Assembly (NCBI RefSeq): GCF_002443295.1
Contig: NZ_BAOS01000002.1
Coordinates: 1 to 35,148 of the forward strand
Direction: 5' to 3'
Length of the DNA stretch: 35,148 nucleotides
Origin: Candidatus Scalindua japonica
GTDB lineage: Bacteria; Planctomycetota; Brocadiia; Brocadiales; Scalinduaceae
Below are positions 3,893-35,148 of this stretch, piece by piece; the stretch's first letter is position 1; each line of letters starts with the position of its first letter. Both the position numbers and the translations under genes were made by a program. The notes under the pieces were generated by a model that was not told the DNA's origin, searched no databases, and was given only the letters and a program-made list of their open reading frames with translations.

Positions 3893-4005
3893 AGTTGAGG
3901 TTATAATATGCTTTAATAAAATCCTTATTGTTATTGTACAAGCAGAAACTACTTCAACCGTCAATAAAGACACTATTTCTCCGCACTTCAATGCTTATCA
4001 GCGTC
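3893..4005. other. Non-coding spacer after the GMC gene
   Basis: There is no open frame of note and no convincing terminator. It leads directly into the inverted-repeat element. Confidence 0.4.
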
Positions 4006-4128
4006 ATCCGGTTAGGTTTTTGCGTATTGCAAATTAATGCTCCAAAACTGTCATCCCCCGACACCACCGTTCGCCAGACAAATGGTGTTATCTATTAAAC
4101 AGATACTTGATTATGCTGGCGTGTTTCT

Positions 4129-4145
4129 GGTGCGTAAAACGCACC
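4129..4145. repeat. Hairpin copy 1 of a covarying pair
   Basis: Stem GGTGCGT and ACGCACC with a three-base loop, followed by CTAC. It is an inverted copy of the hairpin at 4188-4208. The innermost G-C pair here is an A-T pair in the other copy, so pairing is kept despite change. Confidence 0.65.
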
Positions 4146-4191
4146 CTACGATTTTTGTTCCCGGACGTAGAATGTTTTTGGTGGGCGGTAG

Positions 4192-4208
4192 GGTGCATTC
4201 CATGCACC
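4192..4208. repeat. Hairpin copy 2 of a covarying pair
   Basis: Stem GGTGCAT and ATGCACC with loop TCC, preceded by GTAG. Its differences from copy 1 are a compensating pair in the stem plus loop changes. Confidence 0.65.
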
Positions 4209-4397
4209 GTTAACAACTTAAACCATGCGAGGACAAGTTTAAGCGGGAATCCAGATTGAACAAACCACCTGGATACCCGATAAAGGAATTCCTGCCCGAA
4301 TAGGTACCCGTCCCCGCCAGAACAGCCTTGTCGGGCTGGCGAACGGTTGAGCCGGGCGGGTATGACAAAAGCGGTATACGCAAAAACCTGACCGGAT

Positions 4398-18045: not shown

Positions 18046-18153
18046 GATTAAATGTGGGAAAAATTTCTAAATTTGATCTTTAGTGGAAAATTACCAGGTA
18101 AAGTGGAGTTGATCTAATATCAACATTAATTGATAATTTTTTTGAAAGGAACA

Positions 18154-19587
18154 ATGATGATATATTATTCTGTAATAGTTTCAATATTTGTTAATTCTGT
18201 CAAAAATTTAGCATGTGTGTTTATGTTATGTACAATTTTATCGTCACTGATTGGATGTGGTATTTCAAGAGAAGGCGCTGTAGATTATCGTAAAGCAAAT
18301 ATTATGGACATGAGTGAAAAGAAGGAGCTTGTAAGGATAAAAGAGGAGTCTCTGGATAGTAAAAAAGCATCAGGTGCAATTCAAAACACCCCATTACTGC
18401 CGGTAAAACTTGTTAGGCAAGCGTTACAGTCAAATGAAACGGATGCAAAAATAGAAAAATTGAACTCAATTACCATTCGATTAAGACGCGCGTTGATAAA
18501 AGAGTTTACTGAAATTCCTTTGAACCCTATTAGAGGGTTTAAGGCAAATGGAGAGATTGCAATTGTTGTGAAGGCTTTTGAATTTGGTGAAGGTGAAGAT
18601 TTTGATTTTACACCAGAGGGAGTTAAGGAAGGGAGGGTAGTTTTCTACTCAAGTGATGTGGAAGAAGACCAGATTCTCAATTTCAATAATATGCCAATCT
18701 ACGGGCCCATTCAGTACAATGGTAATCCAATCGGGCTGGATTTTTTCATCATGGAGTTAGATACGAATGATGAACAGATAGCGGCCCTTCTCAGTACTTT
18801 AGCAAGCTTTGGCGCAATGGCATACCCTCCCGCCGCACCAATTCTACCAGTGTTGGACTCACTCGGTAAGTCATTATTAAAGGGTAATACTAACGATATA
18901 GGGATGCGTTTCTCTTTAGTTTTAGATCCACCGGAAGGGTATGCCGGTTTAAGTTATCCATCTGTAGAAGCAGGAAACTATGTTCTGCTCAGAGAAGATA
19001 ATCGCCAAGCTGTTACTAAATGGGATGCGTTAGTGTTGGACGATAATAACGGTTTACTCTATAACAATACAACTGATAAACAGGGGTTGTATAGAGATAA
19101 CACTTACCTGACATTTCAGGTAAATAAAGGGTTCAATTCAAAAAATCTTGACTTGTCTCAAAATAAGTTTGGTCCTTTTCTTGACAAGCTTAAAGAGGAA
19201 GATGCTCGCAAAGCAGCCGAACTAAATGGTGTCTTTAACGAAATAAAAAAAGTTGGATTTGCACGGATGCAGAAGAGAAACTTTACTAATGCTAAAGTAA
19301 TATTAAGTAATTTAAAGTCTGCAATAAAAAATAACAAGCAAAACATTGCAAAACGTACAGCTTACGACTTGTTTAAATTAATAAAAAAGGCGGTGCCGCC
19401 TATACCAGATCCTAATCCGGGATCGGAAAATTTATCATCAGAGCAGAGGATCTATTTGTTAAAAGCGCTTAGATCAATGGCTAAAGCAAGTGCATCATTT
19501 AGTGATTTAGAAATATTTGAAGATGATTGGTTCAGAAGAACTCCTGGTGATACAATTTTTAATACACTCTTTCCTTTAATAAAATAA
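18154..19587 (+). CDS. Lipoprotein of unknown function, 477 aa
   Basis: I use ATG 18154 (or 18157), preceded by a GAAAGGA site at 18144-18150; the frame is open back to TTG 18130. The signal runs to a lipobox L-I-G-C near residue 35. The mature protein has a beta-rich middle (I-R-G-F-K-A-N-G-E-I-A-I-V-V-K-A-F-E-F-G), a helical Ala/Pro-rich hydrophobic patch (A-S-F-G-A-M-A-Y-P-P-A-A-P), and a motif G-N-Y-V-L-L-R-E-D-N-R near residue 280. The C-terminal helical region is basic. I recognise no family. It stands between the PLD-like and alpha/beta-hydrolase genes and may be a substrate- or partner-binding surface protein. Confidence 0.72.
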   Translation: MMIYYSVIVSIFVNSVKNLACVFMLCTILSSLIGCGISREGAVDYRKANIMDMSEKKELVRIKEESLDSKKASGAIQNTPLLPVKLVRQALQSNETDAKIEKLNSITIRLRRALIKEFTEIPLNPIRGFKANGEIAIVVKAFEFGEGEDFDFTPEGVKEGRVVFYSSDVEEDQILNFNNMPIYGPIQYNGNPIGLDFFIMELDTNDEQIAALLSTLASFGAMAYPPAAPILPVLDSLGKSLLKGNTNDIGMRFSLVLDPPEGYAGLSYPSVEAGNYVLLREDNRQAVTKWDALVLDDNNGLLYNNTTDKQGLYRDNTYLTFQVNKGFNSKNLDLSQNKFGPFLDKLKEEDARKAAELNGVFNEIKKVGFARMQKRNFTNAKVILSNLKSAIKNNKQNIAKRTAYDLFKLIKKAVPPIPDPNPGSENLSSEQRIYLLKALRSMAKASASFSDLEIFEDDWFRRTPGDTIFNTLFPLIK

Positions 19588-19837
19588 GAGGCATCAGGAT
19601 ATGCTTCTCCGGATATTAAATAAACAACATTGTAAGGGTTTTTTTCAGCTGAATGATAAGTCGGGTTAGGCCAAACAGTCTTTGTCACAGGGCCTGTCTG
19701 GCCTGCCCGGATGAATTAATTCGAACAGGAACAACCCCCTATTAATCCCTGATAATCATTGGCAACTTTGGTTTTAAACAGTATATTTACCGTACTCAAT
19801 TTTTCAACTAAACAAATACTTTAATAAAAGGGCTGCT
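19588..19837. other. Spacer with GC-rich inverted patches
   Basis: A stretch near 19688-19713 contains GGGC and GCCC boxes that could pair, and GAATTAATTC at 19715-19724 is a 10-base palindrome. Neither makes a convincing terminator. No gene is visible. Confidence 0.3.
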
Positions 19838-21295
19838 ATGAAAAGAAAAAAAATAATTTATTATTTACTACCATTAATGATGATTATAATGACATTATTT
19901 GCCGGTTGCAGCAACCCGCCTAAACTTCTGGAAAAGGAAAAAGTGTACGGTACAAGTTCCGACAAATACGCGATCTTTCATAGGATTGCTGAGGCTGATC
20001 GAGGTTTTGGGCTTAAGTATCCTGGGTTTTTGGTAGGAATAGAGAAAGGGCATAGGGAAGATATTGATCCCAATAATACGTATAATGTTGTTGAACAACT
20101 GAATAGAGGGGTAACATCAGAAAAAAATTATGAGAGAGTTAAGGATATTCTTGGTGACAGGAAATTGACTTTTATTTCACATATTGCACAGTATCGGCTT
20201 AAATCGAGTACTACGGAGAATCCCTATCAGGGAATTCCTTATATTGAAGAAGAGTTCATACATAACGCGTATGAGAAGGATTACGACCACACAAAGGTAT
20301 ATTCCGACAGCGACGTAGTGCTTGGAAAATTAAAAGAACGTCTTGGGGAAATAAAGAACTCCGAGAGATACACCCACATATTCCTCTATTGTATGGGTTG
20401 GAATACAGATCAGCAGGAATGTCTGAGAAATTACAATAGTCTATTGGCGTTAATGATAGAGAATTACGCAGGGAGAGAACCTTTCAGACCTCTGTTTGTG
20501 GGGATTTCATGGCCATCGTTATGGAAGTGGAAAGTATTTAAATATACGGGAATAATATCAAGTTATTTTGCAAAAGCGGATGACGCGGACGAGGTAGGGC
20601 TTGTATGGGCGAATAGAGTGTTGCGTGATATCCTGGTCCCTCTTAAGAGAGAGAAAGAGATCCCATTGATAATTGTGGGACACAGTCTTGGCTCCAGAGC
20701 GCTTACAAGGGCGCTGTTTAGCGCTCCTCTGGTTCCAACAGTTCTTGTCGATTCATCTGACGATATAAAAAAGAGCGATATTGATCTGGTAATCGGACTG
20801 GAAGGCGCGTTCAGTGTTAGACGATTCTTGAAAGGTAAGGGGCTAGAGGGGTATCCGTATGAAAAGTTTGCTGATTATGCCCGAAAATTTGTTTTTACCT
20901 GGAGCAGTCATGATACCGCAACTGAGGCGCCTGTAATTTATGGTACCCGGTATATAGGCAGTGAATCCGGCTATAATTATACATCAAAATTTGATTCTTT
21001 CGAACACTTCAAAATAAATGTTGAAGAAATCGATCAGGCTTCAGCTGTTAAAGGTCAAAGAGATAAAAAGAAGAAGAAGTATAAATTAGACATTAACTAT
21101 AACAGGATTTTTAAAGACGTGCAGGACAGTATGAAGTGGAAAAATAGTTTTACGGATGCGTCCAAGATTTCAATTGTGGATGCTTCTGAATTGATCTATT
21201 ATCATCCATACCAGAAAGGTGGCAATGCCCATAACGATATTTATACCCCGGGAGTTGCAGATTTTATCTGGAGTTGTATTGATAATATTCCTTAA
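19838..21295 (+). CDS. Alpha/beta-hydrolase (lipase/esterase-like) lipoprotein, 485 aa
   Basis: A lipoprotein signal ends in F-A-G-C near residue 24. The hydrolase core shows H-I-F-L-Y-C-M-G-W-N-T-D (oxyanion region, near residue 185), strand V-G-I-S-W-P-S, then the nucleophile elbow V-G-H-S-L-G-S with Ser283. A late H in Y-H-P-Y-Q or H-N-D-I-Y could be the catalytic His, and D-S-S-D or E-G-A-F the acid; these assignments are tentative. The fold belongs to serine esterases and lipases of the alpha/beta-hydrolase clan (DUF900-like esterases look similar), here anchored to a membrane. It follows a lipoprotein gene after a 250-base gap. Substrate unknown. Confidence 0.8.
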   Translation: MKRKKIIYYLLPLMMIIMTLFAGCSNPPKLLEKEKVYGTSSDKYAIFHRIAEADRGFGLKYPGFLVGIEKGHREDIDPNNTYNVVEQLNRGVTSEKNYERVKDILGDRKLTFISHIAQYRLKSSTTENPYQGIPYIEEEFIHNAYEKDYDHTKVYSDSDVVLGKLKERLGEIKNSERYTHIFLYCMGWNTDQQECLRNYNSLLALMIENYAGREPFRPLFVGISWPSLWKWKVFKYTGIISSYFAKADDADEVGLVWANRVLRDILVPLKREKEIPLIIVGHSLGSRALTRALFSAPLVPTVLVDSSDDIKKSDIDLVIGLEGAFSVRRFLKGKGLEGYPYEKFADYARKFVFTWSSHDTATEAPVIYGTRYIGSESGYNYTSKFDSFEHFKINVEEIDQASAVKGQRDKKKKKYKLDINYNRIFKDVQDSMKWKNSFTDASKISIVDASELIYYHPYQKGGNAHNDIYTPGVADFIWSCIDNIP

Positions 21296-21325
21296 GTACA
21301 AATAAAAAATTTGAATTAAATACGC

Positions 21326-21595
21326 GAGGAGGAGATCCTGAAACAGGACGAGAATAGCTTATATCGCACTTTTCAGTATCGTTGTCTCATTAGCGCTTCT
21401 GTTTATAGCTGCCTTCTTTGATGGCTTGTCCGTAACCGTTCCGGTAGATGAGTCGATAGGACATGCAGAGTACGCTTTTCAAGGTATCTTAAAACAATCA
21501 ATAGTAACGAGGGGTTATTTGCATGGATAGAAGGATTTCTAGCGGCAATTGTTGGCGCATACTACGGAGTAACATCATGGCGCCCATCCAGTTAG
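21326..21595 (+). pseudogene. Degraded small two-span membrane protein gene
   Basis: A GAGGAGGAG ribosome binding site (about 21325-21333) precedes a CTG at 21338, but the coding frame is one base off after about six codons. From there it reads a membrane span (I-A-L-F-S-I-V-V-S-L-A-L-L-F-I-A-A-F) and a polar loop to a stop at 21528-21530. A third frame then continues from about 21506 with A-W-I-E-G-F-L-A-A-I-V-G-A-Y-Y-G and ends at 21593-21595. Joined, these make a roughly 85-residue protein with two spans and a TSWRPSS tail. The family is unrecognised; at least two indels break it. Confidence 0.5.
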
Positions 21596-21725
21596 TACAG
21601 GAGTAAATGTGTTCAAGTTTCATTATTCAATTAGAAGTAGAAGCTTTTTATAAATTACAACATTTGTTTAGGCTCTGTAGGCAGCAAAAAACAAACATGT
21701 TATTTTTTTAGGATGGGGGAGGCTT

Positions 21726-23816
21726 ATGGTTGAAGTAAATGATGGAAAAACAGGAAAAGATCATTATGTTGAAAATGCGAATGAAGTTATCGAAAAAGAG
21801 AGACAACATATTGGAAAAAATAATAAGGAAAACCTCTCTGGATTAGCTCTCTCAGGCGGTGGCATTCGCTCTGCCGCATTTGGGCTTGGCGTTATCCAGG
21901 GCCTTCTGGCAGGAGATCACTTGAAGAAGGTCGATTATCTATCTACAGTTTCCGGTGGAGGATACATTGGCTCAGCTCTCACCTGGTTCCTTTATAAAGG
22001 AGGTAAGAAAGGTACTATAAAATCAGAATTCCCGCTTGGTAGATCAGGGGTTGGTGACAGGCAGGGTATAAATGAAAACGCTACATTAAACTACATCAGA
22101 CAGCATTGTAACTATCTTCTCCCTGGCAAGGGGCTTGATATGGTCTCAATGATGGCGGTTGTTATTCGCAGTATGTTTATTTCGCTGTTTGTGTATCTGA
22201 CGATGCTGACAATTGGTATGTATTGCTTGCTGAAATTACATGTGATTGACAGACCGGGTACCGTGAATCCAACCGGGTGCCCAATTCCCTGTTCAGGTCA
22301 GATAAACTTTTCTATCAGTGCGGCAATCGTATTAACCGTCCTGGTCCTGTTGTTTATTCTCATGTCTTCTCTATTTACCAAGATGTTGAGTATTATTGAT
22401 AGTTCTCTGATATACCGATGGTTTATTTTTAATCAAAAGATTATGGGATGGGCCTGGAAGATCGTTTTAGGTCTTCTTGTCCTGGGGTCACTGCAGTATG
22501 TGAGTCAGGTGCTCGGCACTGTCCCTCAGGCAATTGCAGCTTGTGGATCAACAATTGCAGGTGTAGTTATGGGTCTGCTTAGATTAAAAAGAGATCAGGA
22601 CCCGAAGAAGTCAAAGAGAGGTTCGGTTGAAAACATATTGATTGTTGTCGCAGCGGCGCTTCTGATATATGGTATGCTCTTTATCGCATATACTTTAGCA
22701 AATAATATCAAGTGTGGATGGACGATTGTTTGCCTTTCTTTACTGGTTTTAATATTCGGTGTCATTGTCAATCTAAACTATGTCGGTATGTACCGTATGT
22801 ACAGAGACCGTTTGATGGAGACATTTCTTCCTGATACGGAAAGTGTTGAGGACAATCAGTGGAATCCGGCTAAAGAAGCGGATAAAACCCTGTTGGAAAA
22901 GATGTGCGATAATCCACGCAGACCCTATCATCTGATAAACACACATATAGTGCTTGTAGACTCGCCGACATCAAAATTTCGTGGTCGTGGTGGTGACAGC
23001 TTTACTCTCTCTCCACTCTTTTGCGGAAGTGACGCGACAGGATGGCGCGAAACTGCTGAATATATGAAAAAAGGATCTCGCGGCATGACACTCTCAACCG
23101 CGATGGCTATTTCTGCTGCGGCTGTTAATCCAAATTCCGGTGTGGCAGGACAGGGAGTAACGCGTAATAAATCAGTATCCCTGTTGATGTCTCTGTTGAA
23201 TATAAGGACGGGTTATTGGGCACACAATCCTGAAAAAAGGTATCATTCACCTTTCCCGCCAAATTTTATCATACCCGGTCTTATGGGAGTATTGGGATCA
23301 GGTCTGAAAGAGAATGGCAGATCAATAGAGTTGACTGATGGAGGTCATTTTGAAAACCTAGCGCTTTACGAATTGATAAGACGTAGGTTGTCATTAATCA
23401 TAGTTTCCGATGCGGGAGCAGATCCTGATTTTCAATTCGGAGATCTCGCAAACGCGATTGAGCGTGTACGTGTTGATTTTGGCGCTAATATCAAGTTTAA
23501 TGATCCTGAGTTTAACCTGGAGCATGTATTGCCAAAATCCGAGAAAGGGCTTATGGCAAGGAAATACAAGTTAGCAAAACGTGGTTTTGCTATTGCCAGC
23601 ATTGAGTACAATGACGGGTCTGAGGGAAGGCTTATATACCTTAAGACAACACTTATAAAAGATCTTCCGGCAGATATTTACGGTTACAAAAATGCAAACC
23701 CTCTGTTTCCTGATCAGCCTACATCAGACCAGTTTTTTGATGAATCACAATTCGAGGCCTACCGTGAACTGGGTTATCAACTGACTAAAAAAATGTTGGC
23801 TACTGTTAAAATATGA
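21726..23816 (+). CDS. Patatin-like phospholipase with multi-span insert, 696 aa
   Basis: Patatin signatures frame the protein: the glycine-rich oxyanion loop S-G-G-G-I-R-S at residues 43-49, the nucleophile elbow V-S-G-G-G with Ser76, and the C-terminal D-G-G motif with Asp538 (T-D-G-G-H-F-E-N-L-A). Patatins are acyl hydrolases (phospholipase A type) using a Ser-Asp dyad. Between the two halves, residues about 145-365 hold roughly six hydrophobic spans (for example F-V-Y-L-T-M-L-T-I-G-M-Y and A-A-I-V-L-T-V-L-V-L-L-F). The enzyme is therefore probably a membrane-embedded protein with the spans inserted into its catalytic domain. No signal peptide; the ATG follows GGGGGAGG. It lies between the alpha/beta hydrolase and the zinc protease. 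Confidence 0.87.
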   Translation: MVEVNDGKTGKDHYVENANEVIEKERQHIGKNNKENLSGLALSGGGIRSAAFGLGVIQGLLAGDHLKKVDYLSTVSGGGYIGSALTWFLYKGGKKGTIKSEFPLGRSGVGDRQGINENATLNYIRQHCNYLLPGKGLDMVSMMAVVIRSMFISLFVYLTMLTIGMYCLLKLHVIDRPGTVNPTGCPIPCSGQINFSISAAIVLTVLVLLFILMSSLFTKMLSIIDSSLIYRWFIFNQKIMGWAWKIVLGLLVLGSLQYVSQVLGTVPQAIAACGSTIAGVVMGLLRLKRDQDPKKSKRGSVENILIVVAAALLIYGMLFIAYTLANNIKCGWTIVCLSLLVLIFGVIVNLNYVGMYRMYRDRLMETFLPDTESVEDNQWNPAKEADKTLLEKMCDNPRRPYHLINTHIVLVDSPTSKFRGRGGDSFTLSPLFCGSDATGWRETAEYMKKGSRGMTLSTAMAISAAAVNPNSGVAGQGVTRNKSVSLLMSLLNIRTGYWAHNPEKRYHSPFPPNFIIPGLMGVLGSGLKENGRSIELTDGGHFENLALYELIRRRLSLIIVSDAGADPDFQFGDLANAIERVRVDFGANIKFNDPEFNLEHVLPKSEKGLMARKYKLAKRGFAIASIEYNDGSEGRLIYLKTTLIKDLPADIYGYKNANPLFPDQPTSDQFFDESQFEAYRELGYQLTKKMLATVKI

Positions 23817-23882
23817 GCAGTGAACTTCCTTGATTTATATTTGACTTTATACTTTTTTATGTTTTTAGAATGGAGGATGTAA

Positions 23883-25043
23883 ATGAAGAAACCAAATAAA
23901 AGAATTACAAGAAAAGGAACTGGTGATGTGAAAACGGTCTCAGATAATAAAACCGGTAAACACTCATATTGTTCCATGCCGAAGACGGTAGAGCGGGTGT
24001 TTGGCCCGGATGTAAATCCAAACCGTGCTGGTCTTATACGAAAGATTGAAAAGAAATGGGCAAATGGGACGGTATTGCACTACTATTTTTTTGATAAAAG
24101 CAGTGATGGCGAATATGTATACTATACAAACGGGACAAGGAAGTGGGTAGGTTGGACTACACAAGAAGCAGAAAAGAAAATTGTTCGCAGGGCATTTGAT
24201 ATCTGGAAGAAAGTAGGTATCGGTTTGGAATTTAAAGAGGTCAAATCACGTGAAGATGCTGAAATTCGAATAGGGTTTATGAGAGGTGATGGGGCATGGT
24301 CGTATATTGGAAGAGATATCAACGGTATCGCAGAAGATGAACGAACAATGAATTTTGGTTGGGATTTAACACGGCAGGCCAGTGAAATTGATACTGCAAT
24401 TCATGAAATTGGTCATACCCTTGGGTTCCCTCATGAACATCAAAATCCAAATGCGGGAATCGTCTGGGATGAAGAGTCTGTGTACAGTGACCTTGCCAAA
24501 CCGCCAAACGAATGGAGCCGTGAAACGACCTATCATAACATAATAAAAAAAATAGATCCGGATACCGTACAGGGTTCGAATTGGGACCCGAACTCAATAA
24601 TGCATTATCCATTCGATAGTGGGATGATTAAAATACCAGAAAAGTACTACACTAGCGGGTTAGAACCTGATCCAGGGCTTTCCAAACGAGACAAAACATG
24701 GGTTAAGAGTTTTTATCCGCCTCTTAAGAAGAATGATTATATTGATCTTCTTCCATTCAGAAGTGTTCAGATGTCTATAAAGGCAGGCGAACAGATCAAC
24801 TTTAATATCAAACCTGTTGCTACACGGTATTACAATATATCAACATTCGGCACTTCAGACACACTCATGGTTTTATTTGAGAATGAGAATGGAGAAAATC
24901 GTTATCGGACAGCAGATGACGATAGTGGTACCGGGTATAATGCAAAAATCCGTACAAAATTGATTAAAGGGCGTAGTTATGTCCTGCGAGTACGTCTTTA
25001 TTATAGTAATCGGTCCGGCGGGACTGCAGTGATGATGTGGTAG
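23883..25043 (+). CDS. Astacin-like zinc metalloprotease with C-terminal beta domain, 386 aa
   Basis: The zinc site H-E-I-G-H-T-L-G-F-P-H (His174, Glu175, His178, His184) continues as E-H-Q-N-P, as in M12A astacins. The Met-turn S-I-M-H-Y-P-F (Met240) follows at the usual distance. An N-terminal matrixin/astacin-like core begins near residue 60 (W-A-N-G-T-V-L-H-Y-Y). The last ~100 residues look like a pre-peptidase C-terminal (PPC) type beta domain (F-R-S-V-Q-M-S-I-K-A-G-E-Q-I-N-F..). No signal peptide is visible, and the N-terminus is basic and polar, so export would need another route or it acts inside. The ATG follows a GGAGG site. Likely a peptidase working with the neighbouring papain-like enzyme. 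Confidence 0.88.
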   Translation: MKKPNKRITRKGTGDVKTVSDNKTGKHSYCSMPKTVERVFGPDVNPNRAGLIRKIEKKWANGTVLHYYFFDKSSDGEYVYYTNGTRKWVGWTTQEAEKKIVRRAFDIWKKVGIGLEFKEVKSREDAEIRIGFMRGDGAWSYIGRDINGIAEDERTMNFGWDLTRQASEIDTAIHEIGHTLGFPHEHQNPNAGIVWDEESVYSDLAKPPNEWSRETTYHNIIKKIDPDTVQGSNWDPNSIMHYPFDSGMIKIPEKYYTSGLEPDPGLSKRDKTWVKSFYPPLKKNDYIDLLPFRSVQMSIKAGEQINFNIKPVATRYYNISTFGTSDTLMVLFENENGENRYRTADDDSGTGYNAKIRTKLIKGRSYVLRVRLYYSNRSGGTAVMMW

Positions 25044-25199
25044 ATATTAGCATAAGTATAGTGTGTCGTCAGGCTACCAGGTTTTAATTGTCCTAATTAG
25101 AATCCTGCCTGTCCTCTTGAAATGCGTGGACTGCCAGTCTCAGTCTACTTCAAACTTGATATGTAGGGAGAATGCTAACAAGATAAGGAGACCGTTAAA

Positions 25200-27048
25200 A
25201 TGACTAAGTCAAAATTTTTAACAAGCCCTGATAAATATGTTCTGGACGCAATGTCTGATATACCGGATATCAGGGACAGGATGTATGAGCCCATGCTCGT
25301 CCAGTTAAAGAAGAAGATAGACCCTCCCGACAATTTATTTATTCTGGACCAGGGCAGGGAAAGGTGCCTGTACTGGATTCGGTCTTGCTGCTGTCATAAA
25401 TCTTTTGAATTTGCGTAGAGACTGTCAAATAAGTGTTAGTCCACGGATGCTCTATGAAATGGCTAGAAGGTTTGATGAATGGCCGGGTGAGGAATATTTC
25501 GGGTCGAGTTGCAGGGGTGCTATTCGAGGTTGGTACAATATGGGTGTATGTACTGAGGAAATGTGGCCGTATAGGACAAATGACAAGTCGACTTTGTCAA
25601 TAAATATGGCAAAAGATGCCCGTTCAAATACAATCGGCGCATATTACCGTTTAAGACATGATATTGTTGATTTCCATGCAGCCCTTAATGAGGTGGAAGT
25701 GCTTTACGTATCTGCAACAGTGCATTCCGGCTGGTGGAAGGATTCAATAAGGAATGGAATAATTCCATTTCGTGATAGATCTGCCGGTGGACATGCCTTT
25801 GCAATTGTAGGTTACAATGAAAAGGGTTTCTGGGTACAGAATTCATGGAATATCGATTGGGGTAATAATGGTATTGCACTGTGGACATACGAAGATTGGC
25901 AGGTAAATATCAGGGATGCGTGGGTTGTTCGACTGGCGCTGCCGACGCCGCAGATTTTCGGAAAAACTCCTGATATATTTTCCTCAGGTGCTGAAGGTAC
26001 TGCCGAACTCAAGAAGGGCCCCGTGCGTGCGGAGATTGCAGGACATTTCGTACACATAGATGATGGTAAGTTTTACGATAACGGACGTTATTGGAGCAAT
26101 CAGGCAGATGTGACCGCTACCGCGGAACATCTGGCGGACAGCGGCAAATATAGACATCTCCTGTTCTATGCACATGGAGGTCTGAATAGTTCCAGAGATT
26201 CTGCTCGGCGTATAAGCGCTGTCAAAGAAGTATTTAAAGCTAATGGTATATATCCGTATCACTTCATGTATGACACGGGAATGTTGGAGGAGATCAAGGA
26301 TATTATTTCAGGCAAAAAGAGACGTGCGACTGATAGAGTTGCGGGTGTTGGAGACTGGAGTGACAAATTCATTGAACTTTTGACACGTAAACCTGGCCGC
26401 GCCATCTGGCGTGAAATGAAGGATGATGCTAAAATTCCTTTTTATAATAACCGTGCGGGTATTAAAACAATCAGCATTTTTATAAATTGTCTATTGAATG
26501 CCAATAAACTCAGTAAGCAAATACACATCATAGGCCATAGTACCGGAGGTATTCTACTGGCACATTTCATAGAAGCATTTAAGAAAATTGCTCCAAAACA
26601 AAAGATAACAACCTGTAGTTTGATGGCGCCGGCTTGTACAGTTGATCTGTTCAATGCTCATTATAAACCCTACCTTGGTTCTAAAACCGGTAAATTCGGA
26701 ATAGACAAAATGACAATATACAATTTGACTGATGAGCTTGAGGTGGCGGACAATGTTGCAGAAATATATCGTAAGTCATTACTTTACCTTGTTTCCAACG
26801 CTTTTGAAGAGGAACGAGAGGCAAAAATTCTTGGCATGCAGAGATATAGCGTGGAATTAAAAAATATCTCGTCAAAAAATTTAGATCTGGTTTACAGTAA
26901 CGGAGCGAAACAAACTTCAAAACTGCGCAGTGCAAGCAGAAGTCATGGTGGATTTGATAATGACAAATATACCATGAATGACATACTCGGCACTATATTG
27001 GGTAAAAAACCTGCCAGACCATTTAAAGATGTTGATCTGAAATATTAG
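25200..27048 (+). CDS. Papain-like cysteine protease fused to alpha/beta hydrolase, frameshifted
   Basis: Frame 1 starts at ATG 25200 behind an AAGGAG site and reads to L-D-Q-G-R-E. One extra A in GGGAAAGG (25360-25362) throws it out of frame to a stop at 25418. Skipping that base gives R-E-G-A-C-T-G-F-G and a frame open to 27048. The catalytic Cys codon (25369-25371) thus lies only nine bases after the shift. The His (25792, G-G-H-A-F-A-I-V-G-Y) and Asn (25840, Q-N-S-W-N) of a C1A peptidase follow. From about 26090 a second domain has Y-A-H-G-G and the nucleophile elbow G-H-S-T-G-G (Ser 26539-26541), an alpha/beta hydrolase. If the frameshift is real, only an inactive piece and a Cys-less downstream product are possible; it could instead be a sequencing error. 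Total about 616 residues. Confidence 0.8.
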
Positions 27049-27064
27049 GCAGTCGATTGGTTTG

Positions 27065-27102
27065 TGAATTGAGTGATACATGACGATGTATCACTCAATT
27101 CA
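27065..27102. terminator. 17-bp perfect hairpin between protease and Vps62-like genes
   Basis: Bases 27065-27081 pair perfectly with 27086-27102 around the loop GACG, starting 17 bases after the stop codon. The position suits a transcription terminator, but the 3' flank (GGTTATAG) is not a T run, so it may instead be an RNA-processing or stability hairpin or a palindromic binding site. Confidence 0.6.
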
Positions 27103-27204
27103 GGTTATAGTATAAGATATCTACTGAAGATGATTTCTTCATGCAAAGCTTGCTTTATTAGATGACAACAAAGATTTTGTTAACCTGGATAGGAGTATTT
27201 GATC

Positions 27205-28773
27205 ATGGCAACAATTAGTTATCCTAAAAATTTTGAGATTATTAAAAATGATGGAAGTTATCTGGAGATTAGAATTGGAGAGATAGTTAAGGGTTGTAAT
27301 CATTATTTTTATCAGTTAAGTAAAAATGGAATTAAATTCCAAGGTAAGAAAAAGTTGACATTATTGGGTCCGGAATTCGGTGTGATAAGGACAGATATTA
27401 CAGAGACCGGAAAATATACTTTTTCCATCTATCTAAATGATGCAGAATATAGTTTCGGCGCTCCGTGGAGAATCATAACAAACCCGGTTAAGAAATTAAT
27501 AAACTGGATATTTAATAATCCTGTATGGGAACAGGATGTTTTTGTTATGGTCAGGAAAGAGCAGGAAAAACTTTCAGAAAAAATTAAGCCGTTAGTAGAA
27601 AAATATGCGCCGTTTCTTCTTTTAGATAATGAAGAACGTTATGTTCCCGCTTCTCTCGATTACCTGGTAAATCAGGAAAAGCCTGATAACAATTTAAATG
27701 ACCTTAAAGTAGGGATAATTTTTCATCGCTTAGATACAGGTCGTAAGAAAAAAGTGACACGCAGAACACGTTTAACAGGTGTTGTCAGGGAAAACATTGA
27801 AGATATTCCTATTAATGATATTGGCAAAGTACTTCCGTTTAATGGTGACAATCTCGGTGAACTGGATACATTGAAAGTTAGTGATGTTGCAACTGCTAAT
27901 AATGAAATGAGAAACGCAATAGAAAAGAGGGTTGGAAATGCAGATAACATAACTGTTTATTATTCATGTTTCTTTAACCCTAATCAAAAAAGGGATGAAG
28001 TTGTAATTAATTATCACTTTCTTTATGCATATGATCCTAAGACTGAAAAAGATGGACAACGGTTTAAAATAGCGTCTCATGTTTTTGACCGTGAAAGTAT
28101 CAGTATCGTTTTTAACTGGGACAGGAATAATCCGGAAATCGAACCTCAACCAGATTCGGTATTATATGGCGCACATCTCCCTGGACAGAAAATAACATTA
28201 AAAAGAAAAGACAACGGTGAGGAGCAGGCATGGTCGACAGGACGAGTTAAACTGAAGTGGAAAGATGTTGCAATTGTTAAAAATGAGGAAAAGGATAAGT
28301 TACATCCGGTTGTAGCCGTCGCATTGGGTTCTCATGCGCCATATCCGGTACGGGGAGTTTATGTTGTTGATCCGGGGAAGATGCTTCCATCATTGACGGA
28401 ACCAGCAAGGGCGGGTAAAGGATTGATCCCGTCTTGCTATGAGAACAATAAGAGAAAAGTAGAAGAAGTGTTTGAAAGTAAAGATGTTAGTTTTTACACA
28501 TTAGCAGATTTAGAATTAGGTTCTATTACCAGCACTTCAAAAAATAGTATTTTAGCCTTCAGTGGTGATGTGGTAGACATTATTGGAGGAAATAATGCCA
28601 AGTTTCCACCGTTTACCAAACGTGAAACTGAAATAGACAAATATGTTAATGGTACTGCAGACGATCCGGTCCATATTTGGGACCCCAATAAAGTAGATAA
28701 AACGGATGATACAAAGTTTGCTGATTTGGTTAATAAAATTGAAAAAAGTTTGACAGAAGGAGTGGTAAGATAA
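27205..28773 (+). CDS. Vps62-like protein, 522 aa
   Basis: I use ATG 27205, eight bases after a TAGGAG site; TTG 27199 is too close to it. After an N-terminal ~110 residues of beta character, residues about 131-420 match what I know of the Vps62-like family (PF06101): K-Y-A-P-F-L-L-L-D-N-E-E-R-Y-V-P, later N-Y-H-F-L-Y-A-Y-D, S-H-V-F-D-R-E-S-I-S-I-V, and H-P-V-V-A-V-A-L-G-S-H-A-P-Y-P near residue 373. The family is named after a yeast vacuolar-sorting gene and is scattered in bacteria, where its role is unknown; a lipid or toxin-like beta fold has been suggested. There is no signal peptide. It sits between a protease and a phosphoesterase remnant. Confidence 0.7.
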   Translation: MATISYPKNFEIIKNDGSYLEIRIGEIVKGCNHYFYQLSKNGIKFQGKKKLTLLGPEFGVIRTDITETGKYTFSIYLNDAEYSFGAPWRIITNPVKKLINWIFNNPVWEQDVFVMVRKEQEKLSEKIKPLVEKYAPFLLLDNEERYVPASLDYLVNQEKPDNNLNDLKVGIIFHRLDTGRKKKVTRRTRLTGVVRENIEDIPINDIGKVLPFNGDNLGELDTLKVSDVATANNEMRNAIEKRVGNADNITVYYSCFFNPNQKRDEVVINYHFLYAYDPKTEKDGQRFKIASHVFDRESISIVFNWDRNNPEIEPQPDSVLYGAHLPGQKITLKRKDNGEEQAWSTGRVKLKWKDVAIVKNEEKDKLHPVVAVALGSHAPYPVRGVYVVDPGKMLPSLTEPARAGKGLIPSCYENNKRKVEEVFESKDVSFYTLADLELGSITSTSKNSILAFSGDVVDIIGGNNAKFPPFTKRETEIDKYVNGTADDPVHIWDPNKVDKTDDTKFADLVNKIEKSLTEGVVR

Positions 28774-28832
28774 TAAATCCATGTTGATATTATTTTAAAC
28801 TACCAGGTACAAAAAAATTAAGGAATTCAAAT

Positions 28833-29207
28833 ATGATAAAAGAAAAAGTGAAAATATTCCTGTCAGACTTACACGTTGGAGACGGATGACCTGCTGCTGA
28901 TTTTACACCCTCAAAGGAAGATGTATTTACAAAAGTTTAAAATGAACTCTCCTCTTCCTATGGTAAAGGGAGTGTGTTAATAATGCTTGGTGATATTTTC
29001 GACTTAATCGAATAGAAAGAGGATGATCCTGTAAAAGCTATCGATTTTGCTGTTAAGAAACACGATGCATTTGTTACGGCACTGAGAAACTGGCTGAGAA
29101 AAGGGAATAAGCTGTTTTAACTGAAGAAAAAAATGAATTTCCCTAAAATGGAGAAACCCGTTGTAGAGGATCCCGCGTATGCCGTTGATACTGATTTGTT
29201 TACATGA
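28833..29207 (+). pseudogene. Metallophosphoesterase pseudogene with four in-frame stops
   Basis: One continuous frame from ATG 28833 to TGA 29205-29207 reads as the N-terminal part of a calcineurin-like phosphoesterase: I-F-L-S-D-L-H-V-G-D-G with intact D-x-H, then I-M-L-G-D-I-F-D-L-I-E. A charged helix A-I-D-F-A-V-K-K-H-D-A-F-V and W-L-R-K-G-N-K-L-F follow, just where the G-N-H-D motif should come. The frame is interrupted by TGA (28887), TAA (28938), TAG (29013) and TAA (29118) but shows no frameshift. Similarity ends after about 100 codons, so the C-terminal two thirds are missing. Confidence 0.65.
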
Positions 29208-29286
29208 TAAAGATGATAATTCTTTTATGTTAATCAAGTGAGACATATTATGGTTTGTGGGTAGTCTGGTAATAAGGAGATGAGTA

Positions 29287-30246
29287 ATGTATGAACGTAT
29301 ATGGAGTGTTTTTATAACGACCTTTATGGTCAGCGTCATTCTCATTGTTGGTTCGATAGGGTGTTGTAGTAGGCAGCATTTGGATATTAAATTTGCATCT
29401 TTAACTAAAGATTGTAAATCATTAGACAGTATTGAGAAATTTTTTAATAAATATATTGAAACGATGGATAATGTCGTTAGGTCAAATGATGAAATAGTTC
29501 ATGAGTTAAAATTAATATCAGAAAAATATTTGGGGAAAAAAACCAAAGAGTTTAATGTTATTCCGACATCTTTGACCCTAAAAATAGGGAATAAAAAATG
29601 TAAAGATGGTTGTTTTACCGCTATTTCTGGAGACACTATATATTCAGTTATTTCCAGCAATGAAATGGTTGCGAAATCTCTTTTTGATTATCATAAAAAA
29701 AAACTATAAAGAAAAAGAGGGATGTATACATGAACCAAGATGTAAGTATGAACAAATATTTATTAGGGGGGTTAGTGAGGGAGAAGCAATTATTACTTTT
29801 GCTAGTGAGAATGGTTTATCAAAAGATATTAAGGTAAGTGTTGTAGATATATCATTAGAAATCAAATCAGTCGGGGGAAAAAGGGTAGGCAAAGATAAGA
29901 CTATTACTATTGAGAAATGGGAAGAAAAGAAGATTATAATTAAATCTAGCTTTAAGCCCATAGTTAAGGATAATTCTGATGTAAAAAATAATCTGAAAAA
30001 ACTGTTTTTTAATAAAATTATTATGTCTGAGAACATGTGGGAATCAACAATCAAATTCAATGAATCTGGGATGAATGAAAATATATCTGGATACACAGAC
30101 GAAGAAACAGTAAACAAAGAAAGTGATTTTGGCAAAATGACAAAAGATGAAAAATTACTTTTATTAATGGTAAGGGTGGAGATGATAAAATTACTTTTAT
30201 TAATGGTAAGGGTGGAGATGATAAAATTACCGTAAAGTTTAAGTAA
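29287..30246 (+). CDS. Ig-like-domain lipoprotein interrupted by two frame changes
   Basis: It starts at ATG 29287 after an AAGGAG site. The signal ends in a lipobox S-I-G-C near residue 26. Frame 1 runs to TAA 29707 but changes in an A9 tract (29695-29703); with eight A the frame continues to about 30150. A bacterial Ig-like (Big2-type) domain straddles the break: I-P-T-S-L-T-L-K-I-G and V-I-S-S-N-E-M-V-A before it, I-R-G-V-S-E-G-E-A-I-I-T-F-A-S after it. That is good evidence for one gene. A second change at the 36-bp tandem repeat restores the first frame, giving K-I-T-F-I-N-G-K-G-G-D-D twice and a C-terminal I-T-V-K-F-K before TAA 30244. The real product could be about 318 residues. Sequencing error, slippage and true decay are all possible. 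Confidence 0.6.
29695..29703 (+). repeat. A9 homopolymer at a frame break
   Basis: Nine A residues cover the codons for lysine just before the frame-1 stop of the Ig-like lipoprotein. Loss of one A would join the two halves of its domain. Such tracts are prone to replication or transcription slippage and to sequencing indels. Confidence 0.7.
30151..30230 (+). repeat. 36-bp tandem repeat, two copies plus a partial third
   Basis: Bases 30151-30186 and 30187-30222 are identical, and 30223-30230 begin a third copy. In the frame that ends at TAA 30244 each unit encodes K-I-T-F-I-N-G-K-G-G-D-D. The sequence just before the first copy (GATGA instead of GATGAT) lacks one base, which marks the second frame change. 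Confidence 0.8.
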
Positions 30247-30360: not shown

Positions 30361-30378
30361 TGACTTGAGGATATCGTT

Positions 30379-33300
30379 ATGTTAGAAAATGAAAAAAATG
30401 GACTTGGGCTGCCGCCAATCAGCAGCGTTGTAATTATACTAATTGTAATAGGAGCTGTTTTCTTTAGTCTGAAACATTTGCAAAGCTCACGCCCTTCAGA
30501 TTATGGCACATCTGAATATATGCGAGACACTGAAGATGTCTACGCTCGTCTCTGGCAAGACCCCTTTGGCGCTATTTATAAACACGAGGAGGATAAATCG
30601 TTACATAAGGGCGTTCATTCACGTTTTGTTCTGGAAAAGATCATAAAAAAAAATGAGATAACTAGACCAGACGAAATTCACATAATTGGCGTTATGGCAG
30701 AAGGTGGACATTACTTTGAAAACGTTGAACAGAAACGTAGACGTAGATACGCAATAGTTTCTGCCCTGAATGTTTCCGGATATAAGCCTGAAAATGCACA
30801 AAAAATCGGCTATTTCCTGACGAGTGATTATAAATTTACTAATGATGATAATGTTAAATTGCCAGAAAAAATTCCGTTTGAATTGTTTAAATTCAGAAAA
30901 GGCAAACCATTAATCGTATTACTCTGGCTGGATGAAGAATTTTTTGCTAATAATTTTCTTATAAATATTGATGCATTAACCGAAGTGTTGCGGATTGACC
31001 AGTTGTTCAAGAACACAAATCCAGAAAATAATATTGTTGAAGATGGTCCAAAGAATGAAACTGATTCAGTAAAATTGACAATCCTTGGGCCGTCATCTTC
31101 TGCCACACTAAAATCAATGGCTGATGAATTAGGAAAATCAACAACTTGGGGTGACTTAATTGCTAAAGTACAAAGTTATACAGTAAAATTAGCAACACAG
31201 CAATTGTATAATAATGAGAAATTTGTTCAGCGAGTAAAGAATGATGAAGAACAAGTAGAAGTACAGGATACGATGACAAAGTACATTTATGCTGTCTTTA
31301 CTACTATAAAGGAGAACTTAAAATTAGATAAAGACGGAGTTGTTGATAAAGACGATGAGTTTTATACAGAAGTGAAAAAGGAGATAATGAATCCTAAGTG
31401 GACGGAGAGAGACGTAAATACAGAAAAAGTCGAATGGTTCAGTTATGTTGATTTAGTGAAGGTTTGTTCACAAATTCGAGAAAAATGGCATCATCTAAAA
31501 AAATTGAAGCTTACAATAGTTTCTCCTATAGCGACAGTTGAAAGGAATTTACTATTAGAAGATAAGGATATTGGAGAATTATTTACTAATAATTTCCCAA
31601 ATGGTCTCTTTTTACGAACTATCGAATCTGATTATGAACTAGCGGAGTGTATATATGATGAACTTGTTTTAAGGGGTGTGAAACCGGGGGATGATCATAT
31701 TGTTATCATATCTGAATGGGATACAGATTATGGTGGCTGGATACAAGGTTCTTTTAATAGAGTTTTCAATGATAGAAGAAGAGTTTTCAATGATAGAAGA
31801 ATTATAGATTGTCATAGGAATTATATTAAGATGATAATTAGCGAAATCGAAAAGAGAAACATAATTAAAGTCCGGGAAGATGTAAGGCCTATTATTAAAA
31901 TAATTAAAGACGAGAGTAAGAAATATGAGGCTAAGGTAATGGGTGCATACGAAGATAATACAAACGAAGATAATACAAAAGCACCTTATGTTAGTGTTAA
32001 AGAAAGAATCAAGAAAGACAAAGATAATTTTGATGATTTTGTTGTTAAAAAAACAAAAGAGTTGTACAAAAGCATTTTTAACAATGAACTTAAAAATGCG
32101 ATTAAGAAAGTTGCTGATAAGAATGATGAATTTATTGATAAAACAATCAAAGAGACAATAATTCAATATAGCTATATAAGAGGTTTGGATGGTACTGTTT
32201 CAGATGATGTAACAAATTATCCGGCCGGTCAGTTACAATCTAAAAAAGAAAATCGCAACACAGAAAAAAATAGTTCAAGGGTTTTTGTTAATCCTTCTAT
32301 TGGCAATGGACAGTTTGATTACCTTCAACGGATGGGAGATATTATACAAAACAAAAACAGAAACTTAAAAAAGAATGGTAAAGGCAGGATAAAGGCTATA
32401 GGAGTACTGGGAAGTGATGCATACGATAAACTCCTAGTCTTGCAGGCATTGCGTAATAAATTTCCAGATGTAATATTTTTTACCACAGACCTTGATACGC
32501 GATTTTCAGATCCGGATGAAATTAGATGGACGAGGAATCTTATCGTTGCTTCAAACTTTGGTTTGCAGTTGCATCCCGGTTTGCAAAATGGTATTCCTCC
32601 GTTTCGGGACAATTATCAAACATCTGTATTTTTAAGTACGCTCATGATATTAAATGTTGACTTCAAAAACTATTATAAAAACTATGTTGAAAGATGTATA
32701 AGAGATGAACATAAATCTATAAAAATTGTTTTACAACTGAATTCTAATTTAGATTTAAAAAAAACAATTCCGCCATTTAAAAAAGAGTATAAATATTCTG
32801 CTTATTTAAGAATTTTGCATGCAATAAATAATCGCAAAGACTCTTCTATGAACAAATTTTATCAAACGGAAATTCATAACCTGATAAAACCAAAAATTTT
32901 AGAAATAGGGCGTCATAATCCTTGTGAATTACGTCAGAATTTGCATCCGAAAGAAAAAGCTGAAAATACTAATCTGATTTTTAACAAATTAGAAACTATC
33001 TTTCCAGGTTTGGACCATAGTATCTATCCAGATTTACCAAAATTTATTCTAGATGAGAATAAGGTATATCTTTTAGTCTATAGCATCATATTTGGCGTAA
33101 TATTATTTGTGACAATGGTCATAAAGCAAAAAAATCATTTTCTTCAATGGATTCTGATTTCAAGTTACATATTGATAATCCTATTACACTATTGTTTTAA
33201 TAAGAAGCCTGTTGATATTTTAGAGCCTTTTTCATTGCATGAAGGAATAAGTCTTTGGCCAGCAGAATTGTTGAGATTTTTTTCCGTTATTTGTTCCGGA

Positions 33301-35148
33301 TTGATTCTATATTTTAGTTACAAAAAAATATTAAAAAAAAATATTGATAAGTTAGGGGATAAATATTTTGATCAAAATACTGAATTATTGACTATGGATG
33401 ATATATGTAATTGGGATGCCCTTTTAGTTTTATTAAAATCGGATAACACTCAACGGTTAAAAGAGATAAGAACGAAAGACGTATCAAAAAATATTAAATT
33501 AATAAATACGAAAAAAGATAAAAAAAAGATAAAAGAAATAATAAAAATAATTAAAGAAAAAATAAAAAAGATTGAAGAGACAAGATTCACGGTAGTAGTA
33601 GAGCAATTGAAATCTAAACTAAATAAAGCCGGTCTATTAGATAAGATGTTAAAGACAAAAAATGAAAATGAATTAGATAATAAGATGAAAGAGGACTTTA
33701 TTAATATTTTTAATACCATAAAGGATGACTTGTTGTTTTATAAAAAATGTATGGATGAAATCAAAGATGAGTTCTCAGCGTGGTACAAAGAATTTACGGA
33801 TAAAATTAATGAAGAGGTTTCAGCGTGGTACAAAATAATTAGGGATAAAACTATTAAAGAGGTTTCAAACAGCTGCAATGAAAATGAGAAAGACTTTACG
33901 GATAAAATTAATGAAAAGTTTTTAAACAGGTACGGTAAAAATAAGAAAGAAATTGATGATATGCTTTTGTCATTCCATAAAAAATGTAAGAGTAAAATTG
34001 ATAACGAAGCCATTAAATATTTTCCTCAAATAAAGAAAGAGCTTAATGATCTTAATGAAATTGAAATATTATTAACTAATTATGGTGAGTTGGAGATAAA
34101 AGAGACTGATATGTCTGACTCACAGAAACAAGGTATTAAACGATTCAATGTTAAACTTCTGAAGAAACTTTTCTCGCAGATTTTAATAAAGAGTAAAATT
34201 GATAACAAAGCTATTAAATGTTTTCCTGTTATTCGAGTTTTTTTAATAATATTAACATTTATAACATTTTCTCTTTTTTTATGGGATTTTCTTGATGGTA
34301 TTTCCATAAATCATGTTGATGATGATTTGAGACCAAATTATAACATTATTTGGATTGTAACATTGATTGGATTATTTATATGGTGCATAAATGACTACTT
34401 AACAAAGGTTACTTCATTAAATAATTATGAAGGAAAAAATAATGATAGTAAACAACCTGTTGGCCTGGCCCTATCAGAAAACAGAAAGAGGAAGTACACA
34501 GTTTTTTTTGCCATATTAGTTAATATATTATTATTTCTATCAACATCATGTCTACTCTATTGGTGGAACTTCATTAAAAGACATGAAACAATAAGGGAAT
34601 TTTTTTATGTAATATGGGTAATACCAATTGGACTATTAAGTTTGCTGATAATTTATTATTTGGATAACGTTGCTCTATCAAAGAAATGGTACAGGTTCAT
34701 AGATGTTAGGGAAAAGTATACGGTTCATGATATTTGGAATTTTTATAGTGAACTTGGTAAATATCGAAATCGATTTTTTCGTTCTACTATGTTTGGACTT
34801 TCTTTTGTAATTTTTTCAGTTTTTATCATTAAAATGTATGGAGAACTACCTGTTCCATTTCGTGGAGATTTTAGTAAATTTTTTGATCTGGGTATGACTT
34901 TTTTGTCTTTCTTTCTCTTTGTATATTTACTCTTTTTTGTAGTAGATGCTGTCAGACATTGTGTCAGGTTTGTTAATTTAATAATGGATGAAGAAATAGC
35001 CTGGTCAAAAGAAACAAGAATTAAATTTGGTATCATTTCTGATATTCATGGTACTGCCACAGATTTCTGGTTAAAGATTAGGCTGATTGCGGAGAGAACA
35101 GAGGCTGTAAATAAATTAATCAACTATCCAATATTAGTTATTCTATTT
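30379..35148 (+). CDS. Giant membrane protein with ligand-binding-like region, 3'-truncated
   Basis: I translated this frame line by line and found no stop from ATG 30379 (GAGG site at 30367) to the window edge: at least 1590 residues. An N-terminal span (residues 14-32) leads to ~860 extracytoplasmic residues with conserved-looking motifs: W-Q-D-P-F (59), K-R-R-R-R-Y-A-I-V-S-A-L (119), L-G-P-S-S-S-A-T-L (near 236), V-I-I-S-E-W-D-T-D-Y-G-G (near 442), Y-I-R-G-L-D-G (near 600), and G-V-L-G-S-D-A-Y-D-K-L-L-V-L-Q-A-L (675). The last is followed by R-W-T-R-N-L-I-V-A-S (716) and resembles a periplasmic-binding-protein fold. Three spans (896-983) follow, then ~290 Lys/Glu-rich coiled-coil residues, and at least six more spans from 1284. 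I remember uncharacterised bacterial proteins with these motifs. Residues ~490-640 and 990-1280 look like low-complexity expansions. Very AT-rich: 33481-33540 has 7 G/C in 60. Confidence 0.85.
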   Translation, partial: MLENEKNGLGLPPISSVVIILIVIGAVFFSLKHLQSSRPSDYGTSEYMRDTEDVYARLWQDPFGAIYKHEEDKSLHKGVHSRFVLEKIIKKNEITRPDEIHIIGVMAEGGHYFENVEQKRRRRYAIVSALNVSGYKPENAQKIGYFLTSDYKFTNDDNVKLPEKIPFELFKFRKGKPLIVLLWLDEEFFANNFLINIDALTEVLRIDQLFKNTNPENNIVEDGPKNETDSVKLTILGPSSSATLKSMADELGKSTTWGDLIAKVQSYTVKLATQQLYNNEKFVQRVKNDEEQVEVQDTMTKYIYAVFTTIKENLKLDKDGVVDKDDEFYTEVKKEIMNPKWTERDVNTEKVEWFSYVDLVKVCSQIREKWHHLKKLKLTIVSPIATVERNLLLEDKDIGELFTNNFPNGLFLRTIESDYELAECIYDELVLRGVKPGDDHIVIISEWDTDYGGWIQGSFNRVFNDRRRVFNDRRIIDCHRNYIKMIISEIEKRNIIKVREDVRPIIKIIKDESKKYEAKVMGAYEDNTNEDNTKAPYVSVKERIKKDKDNFDDFVVKKTKELYKSIFNNELKNAIKKVADKNDEFIDKTIKETIIQYSYIRGLDGTVSDDVTNYPAGQLQSKKENRNTEKNSSRVFVNPSIGNGQFDYLQRMGDIIQNKNRNLKKNGKGRIKAIGVLGSDAYDKLLVLQALRNKFPDVIFFTTDLDTRFSDPDEIRWTRNLIVASNFGLQLHPGLQNGIPPFRDNYQTSVFLSTLMILNVDFKNYYKNYVERCIRDEHKSIKIVLQLNSNLDLKKTIPPFKKEYKYSAYLRILHAINNRKDSSMNKFYQTEIHNLIKPKILEIGRHNPCELRQNLHPKEKAENTNLIFNKLETIFPGLDHSIYPDLPKFILDENKVYLLVYSIIFGVILFVTMVIKQKNHFLQWILISSYILIILLHYCFNKKPVDILEPFSLHEGISLWPAELLRFFSVICSGLILYFSYKKILKKNIDKLGDKYFDQNTELLTMDDICNWDALLVLLKSDNTQRLKEIRTKDVSKNIKLINTKKDKKKIKEIIKIIKEKIKKIEETRFTVVVEQLKSKLNKAGLLDKMLKTKNENELDNKMKEDFINIFNTIKDDLLFYKKCMDEIKDEFSAWYKEFTDKINEEVSAWYKIIRDKTIKEVSNSCNENEKDFTDKINEKFLNRYGKNKKEIDDMLLSFHKKCKSKIDNEAIKYFPQIKKELNDLNEIEILLTNYGELEIKETDMSDSQKQGIKRFNVKLLKKLFSQILIKSKIDNKAIKCFPVIRVFLIILTFITFSLFLWDFLDGISINHVDDDLRPNYNIIWIVTLIGLFIWCINDYLTKVTSLNNYEGKNNDSKQPVGLALSENRKRKYTVFFAILVNILLFLSTSCLLYWWNFIKRHETIREFFYVIWVIPIGLLSLLIIYYLDNVALSKKWYRFIDVREKYTVHDIWNFYSELGKYRNRFFRSTMFGLSFVIFSVFIIKMYGELPVPFRGDFSKFFDLGMTFLSFFLFVYLLFFVVDAVRHCVRFVNLIMDEEIAWSKETRIKFGIISDIHGTATDFWLKIRLIAERTEAVNKLINYPILVILF
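31759..31800 (+). repeat. 21-bp tandem duplication in the giant gene
   Basis: Bases 31759-31779 and 31780-31800 are identical and encode R-V-F-N-D-R-R twice, in frame. It looks like a recent slippage duplication, just after the conserved E-W-D-T-D-Y-G-G motif. Confidence 0.85.
31951..31980 (+). repeat. 15-bp tandem duplication in the giant gene
   Basis: Bases 31951-31965 and 31966-31980 differ by one base and encode E-D-N-T-N and E-D-N-T-K. It is in frame, inside the Lys/Asp-rich low-complexity segment. Confidence 0.8.
33769..33915 (+). repeat. Degenerate 45-bp repeats encoding a 15-residue coiled-coil unit
   Basis: Units at 33769-33813 and 33814-33858 encode E-F/V-S-A-W-Y-K-x-x-x-D-K-x-x-E/K; a third, longer unit at 33859-33915 ends in D-F-T-D-K-I-N-E. 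A related block S-K-I-D-N-x-A-I-K-x-F-P occurs twice further on (about 33991 and 34192). The charged cytoplasmic-type region of the giant protein therefore grew by in-frame duplication. Confidence 0.7.

Follow-up and report, generated by a model that had tools for sequence, protein, structure and literature searches.

A giant membrane protein of the Scalindua lineage with a predicted Venus flytrap and an in-frame coiled-coil insert

The window, the 35,148-nucleotide stretch analysed here, is the complete contig G000:C2 of a genome assembled in 47 contigs. Its last gene, found on the forward strand at 30379-35148, encodes a giant membrane protein, and a ribosome-binding-like GAGG (30367-30370, forward strand) lies 8 nt before the ATG. 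The frame runs through 1590 codons without a stop, and nothing but the contig end, at the window's final base, cuts it short, in agreement with an earlier note on this DNA that had described a protein of at least 1590 aa. The long A tract that the note had pointed out within the open frame is also there, as an A9 run at exactly 33333-33341. A frame of 1590 codons at about 30% GC is not a product of chance, and both of its ends are covered by homologue alignments. The C-terminus is absent because the assembly ends at the contig end. A full-length relative (L054/L039) is about 120 residues longer than the fragment, and a search of the source genome with a relative's C-terminus, run with no positive control, gave no match to the rest. 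The assembly probably breaks at a repeat, since a second contig of the genome (G000:C3) opens with a near-identical copy of a gene termed p524 and its downstream region. The same contig carries a paralogous giant (L051, G000:C3 1493-5745).

Upstream of the giant is a lipoprotein-like gene (29287-30240, forward strand) whose frame is broken into two ORFs of 140 aa and 209 aa, through either assembly error or decay. In two relatives an intact counterpart, of 292 and 302 aa, precedes the giant by 52 and 44 bp. Inside the broken gene, positions 30151-30222 hold an exact 36-nt tandem pair. Farther upstream, 13850-28773 holds a run of secreted and membrane proteins, including an alpha/beta-hydrolase-like lipoprotein, a patatin, an astacin/matrixin metallopeptidase, a papain-DUF900 fusion and several proteins without a family. 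The alpha/beta-hydrolase-like lipoprotein, the patatin and the p524 gene (27199-28773) are found near the giant in some other Scalindua genomes as well. The p524 gene and its downstream region are duplicated, window 27781-29211 being 97.1% identical to G000:C3:1-1431. A dispersed repeat is seen at 3995-4397, where short stretches are 83-98% identical to several places in G000:C3:9775-10372.

Hydropathy reveals ten hydrophobic spans in the giant; all of the following features are encoded on the forward strand. TM1 (aa 13-31; 30415-30471) forms an N-terminal anchor and is followed by a predicted type-I periplasmic-binding (Venus flytrap) domain with large loop inserts (aa 100-856; 30676-32946). 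A helical insert (aa 462-590; 31762-32148) is common to the relative from Scalindua SCAELEC01 and absent in the other aligned relatives. A GVLGSDAYDK segment (aa 675-684; 32401-32430) falls within the most conserved stretch of the family, a strand and helix of lobe 2. Next come TM2-TM4 (aa 897-977; 33067-33309), which include the conserved extracytoplasmic loop EPF..xEGISxWPxE, and an expanded cytoplasmic loop 2 that holds four extra hydrophobic segments in two pairs (aa 1284-1426; 34228-34656). The number of these segments is even and the topology is therefore kept. Core TM5 and TM6 (aa 1466-1522; 34774-34944) include the conserved loop P.PFRG; the contig end truncates TM7, and TM8 and TM9 are missing from the fragment. 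Most full-length relatives share a core plan by hydropathy, namely an N-terminal anchor span, the flytrap and then eight spans. K/R-rich cytoplasmic loops in these 1+8 core spans put the flytrap outside the cytoplasmic membrane, in a topology drawn from hydropathy and charge only.

Structure prediction followed by a fold search had been set beforehand as the test of a periplasmic-binding-like extracytoplasmic part, and it returned such a fold and no unrelated one. Two AlphaFold models were used: aa 30-890 of the window giant, P0001 (pLDDT 76.4, pTM 0.78), and a full-length homologue of 1103 residues, L055 (pLDDT 79.8, pTM 0.81). The P0001 model aligns with the leucine-binding protein LivK (3td9) at Z 21.4 over 312 residues and 3.9 A in VIA-align; the match spans model residues 71-827, equivalent to P0001 100-856. 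It also matches 4q6b with a Foldseek probability of 1.00 (E 4e-3). The L055 model yields 8z0g and 3td9 at Z 21.9 in VIA-align, with a Foldseek E of 5.9e-7 and a probability of 1.00. Amino-acid-binding proteins and class C receptor flytraps dominate the match lists of both models. The extracytoplasmic part is thus predicted to be a two-lobed type-I periplasmic-binding fold joined to many spans, as the earlier note had proposed.

Sequence profiles by themselves give no link to periplasmic-binding families. The 1590-residue P0001 fragment has no Pfam match, and hhalign against Peripla_BP_6 proteins of related genomes reaches a non-significant probability of 3%, in an alignment that still puts LGPxSS, SPxAT and EWDTxYGR in the expected register. 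Because the predicted fold matches and no curated sequence model such as Peripla_BP_6 does, the giant is assigned to the type-I periplasmic-binding fold superfamily only, and to no named sequence family. With the branched-chain amino-acid, amide and urea binding proteins (LivK 3td9, LivJ, AmiC, UrtA), its model has in common a two-lobed alpha/beta fold that aligns across about 310 residues (Z 19-22). Unlike these proteins, the giant is tethered to the membrane at both ends, bears large loop inserts and has an eight-span domain of its own, while lacking both a nearby ABC ATPase and a significant match to their sequence profiles.

Flytraps of metabotropic-glutamate, calcium-sensing and taste receptors also rank high in the fold searches. 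Class C receptors likewise join a Venus flytrap to a multi-span domain in one chain, and this likeness is architectural only. The flytrap aligns well on its own, whereas full-length receptor alignments have an rmsd of about 30 A. Class C GPCRs are marked by seven spans after the flytrap; most full-length members of the giant family have eight by hydropathy, in addition to an N-terminal anchor, and most of their cytoplasmic loops are poorly conserved. Profile searches of the PDB brought up GPCR fusions that were set aside, since the matches reflect helices and low-complexity sequence; those to cytochrome-b562-fused receptors are weak and lie mostly in the fusion partner and in helices.

Relatives of the giant are encoded at no fewer than 205 tblastn-confirmed loci in a scan of species genomes, 80 of which were fetched. 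They occur in Scalindua, Brocadia, Nitrospira, Nitrosomonas, Nitrosospira, Nitrotoga, methanotrophs, Variovorax, Pseudomonas, Azotobacter and others. The closest are found in Candidatus Anammoxibacter and in a MAG of Candidatus Scalindua, the latter with 55% identity across 868 columns, which identifies the host as an anammox bacterium of the Scalindua lineage. In a quick tree the window giant groups with Scalindua SCAELEC01 and Anammoxibacter, and the anammox sequences do not form one group. For ten members, searches of Pfam, NCBIfam and PADLOC gave nothing convincing, with no PADLOC model of known anti-phage defence proteins matched, and no match pointing to plasmid spread was found. No earlier description was found in the open-licence literature. 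The family is real, widespread and uncharacterised, and apparently undescribed and unnamed.

The coiled coil of the giant occupies aa 1006-1267 in cytoplasmic loop 2 (33394-34179, forward strand). The earlier note had called it repeat-expanded, and this part is real: tandem units of 45 and 57 nt, encoding 15 and 19 residues, lie at 33742-33952 (forward strand) and translate to YKKCMDEIKDEFSAW / YKEFTDKINEEVSAW / YKIIRDKTIKEVSNS. These repeats enlarge what is a copy of a Scalindua-type in-frame module. The coiled coil is an insert outside the core plan of the family. The closest relative has about 11 residues where the window giant has aa 1006-1267, and sister giants have no module at this loop 2 site. 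Of the combination that the earlier note had offered for a sensor or transducer, the flytrap joined to many spans stands as a predicted fold; the coiled coil as an integral sensor part does not, being absent in aligned relatives, situated in a variable cytoplasmic loop and recurrent elsewhere as an in-frame insert.

Common to the Scalindua-type copies is a pattern about 130 residues long, from NWdaLL at its start to dLs.sQK..IkRFN..iL..LF at its end. A profile built without the window matches P0001 at 1169-1267 (i-E 9e-10) and 1065-1130 (4e-6), and weakly at 256-338 (0.003). The last match marks a probable degenerate first copy in a loop of the flytrap (31144-31392, forward strand). The C3 paralogue carries a module copy in this same flytrap loop and is split by a frameshift within its second copy. 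When the window module was searched against its own genome, it hit the C3 paralogue at E 4e-6 and, on contig C5, a further ORF at E 1.8e-4.

Starting from the end of the Scalindua-type module, a Brocadia-type module of about 102 residues was found, with the pattern PPLtie.LCk.In.dny...tidWLNELLk.PnFYDil...YRnksfs.Ln..e...IkRLNRLLLEetYP.eTPK. It is present in 14 of 62 Brocadiales genomes, in one to five copies each, and strong matches are limited to Brocadiales within a sample of 294 Planctomycetota genomes. Profile comparison by hhalign (93%, E 3e-7) makes a relationship between the two types probable.

The hosts of these modules are unrelated proteins. In G043, the NAD-dependent DNA ligase LigA (L184, G043:C155 2342-4705) contains a Brocadia-type insert of about 112 residues at about 492-603. 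The LigA orthologue in 30 other genomes of the same family aligns as 1-491 + 604-787 and is free of the insert. The DNA junctions, read for LigA only, show that insertion removed one or two codons and left the reading frame intact. A 1796-residue RAMP-repeat protein (L189, G060:C237 2621-8008), putatively gRAMP/Cas7-11-like, has the Brocadia-type module at residues 971-1070, and another copy resides in a DevR/Cas7-like protein (L187, G022:C10 3959-5365). Brocadia-type copies also occur in a 2009-residue WD40 protein (G058), in a hydrolase (G007) and in a TPR protein 1753 aa long (G048), while a TPR protein of 954 aa (L202, G004:C22 3138-5999) holds two Scalindua-type copies. Among the giants, L046 (G022) has two tandem copies after the EWDTxYGR helix and L045 (G004) has one after the flytrap. 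Together with the window giant, these place module copies in three different loops, and relatives are without them.

Rickettsia palindromic elements (RPEs) are short, encode a conserved peptide and lie in frame inside unrelated genes (PMC10969869). The anammox module is comparable in that it likewise encodes a peptide and sits in frame within unrelated genes. As expected of an RPE-like element, in-frame copies in unrelated genes are accompanied by empty sites in relatives, both for LigA and for the sister giants. RPEs are about 150 bp long and palindromic, whereas the anammox module measures about 300-400 bp (100-135 residues), and it is likened to them by behaviour, not by sequence or ends. 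The chances appear even that Brocadiales host a mobile-element family in which a peptide of 100-135 residues is inserted in frame into working genes (LigA, RAMP-repeat CRISPR-like, WD40 and several flytrap giants), and that the coiled coil in the window is one such copy, of the Scalindua type and lengthened by tandem repeats.

Alternatively, the coiled coil could be an ordinary evolving loop, or a domain shuffled by recombination, with no mobile element involved. This is a serious possibility, held with less than even confidence. Some module copies are old, because they are common to orthologues, as is the tandem pair in G022, G032, G048 and G058. Protein identity between copies is about 40-60%, neither termini nor target-site duplications were established in the DNA, and the relation between the Scalindua and Brocadia types is itself only probable. 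Such a loop or domain fits less readily with the single in-frame copy in G043 LigA set against 30 insert-free genomes, with the occupation of three different loops in giants whose relatives are empty, or with the variety of hosts. A search for a second empty site, made with a host protein in G026, found no homologue outside the module. One copy searched against a phage collection had no match that would point to phage origin.

If mobile, the module would place anammox bacteria beside Rickettsia as a second lineage whose proteins have repeatedly taken in short elements with the frame intact. It may be a more novel find than the giant family itself. No report of in-frame insertions in anammox genomes was found among open-licence papers. 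The LigA copy allows a direct test of insert tolerance in an essential enzyme.

Conservation in the membrane domain of the giants is higher on the extracytoplasmic side. The extracytoplasmic loops between the late spans score 0.56, 0.42 and 0.55 and the cytoplasmic loops 0.28, 0.17, 0.39 and 0.29, so that one cytoplasmic loop (0.39) almost matches one extracytoplasmic loop (0.42). The core plan includes no cytoplasmic signalling domain. Because the extracytoplasmic loops are conserved, the cytoplasmic ones mostly less so and a cytoplasmic signalling domain is lacking, the interface between the flytrap and the membrane domain is placed outside. In the proposed mechanism, a small ligand would close the two lobes of the flytrap outside the cytoplasmic membrane. 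Once closed, the flytrap would act on conserved loops at the outer side of the membrane domain (EPF..EGISxWPTE, P.PFRG and FDNW) and so switch a receptor or gate a transport path. The coiled coil would have been taken as an in-frame module into a variable cytoplasmic loop and later enlarged by tandem duplication, and the core function of the giant would not need it.

The balance is level on this reading as a whole, in which the giant is a receptor or transporter gated by ligand and working through its extracytoplasmic face, and the coiled coil is an accepted in-frame insert, dispensable for that function. What the analysis shows is the predicted fold, the anatomy, the pattern of conservation, the spread of the family and where the inserts occur or are missing. 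That a ligand gates the protein, that it serves as receptor or transporter and that the module is mobile are what we infer, as is the label of sensor or transducer, for a family in which neither a ligand nor a conserved partner gene nor a cytoplasmic output domain was found. The family is frequent in ammonia oxidisers, nitrite oxidisers and anammox bacteria, and its anatomy suggests small-molecule sensing or movement at the envelope. Its ligand, once found, could reveal a new input to the physiology of the nitrogen cycle.

A rival model makes the giant a self-contained transporter, in which the flytrap is a solute-binding protein on a tether and hands its solute to an eight-span permease of secondary or channel-like type. 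The nearest folds are indeed ABC solute-binding proteins, the spans are conserved mainly at their extracytoplasmic face, no cytoplasmic output domain is present, and the giant gene mostly stands alone. On the other hand, no known permease family matches by sequence, and near-invariant polar residues across very different organisms would suggest one ligand and a fixed switch over a nutrient importer. The model is rather unlikely on present evidence.

Even less probable is a receptor of an envelope-conflict or wall/lipid-hydrolase system, partnered with nearby secreted hydrolases. Patatin, papain-like, metallopeptidase and alpha/beta-hydrolase genes are among the neighbours in the window, and giants in several unrelated genomes stand next to genes for a patatin, a hydrolase, a phosphoesterase or a peptidoglycan-binding protein, an observation uncontrolled for local gene content. 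No neighbour gene is conserved across the family, however, the commonest Pfam family occurring in at most 3 of 64 neighbours, and PADLOC returned no match. The hydrolase genes near giants are a lead only. A subunit of an ABC importer with a fused solute-binding domain is highly improbable and is disfavoured, as ATPase genes are absent near giants: the flytrap is closest to the branched-chain amino-acid and urea binding proteins of such importers, but an ABC ATPase (Walker A and LSGGQ motifs) lies within 3 kb at 0 of 75 loci, which leaves room for a distant ATPase. Anywhere in the flanks, an ABC ATPase is encoded at five of these 75 loci.
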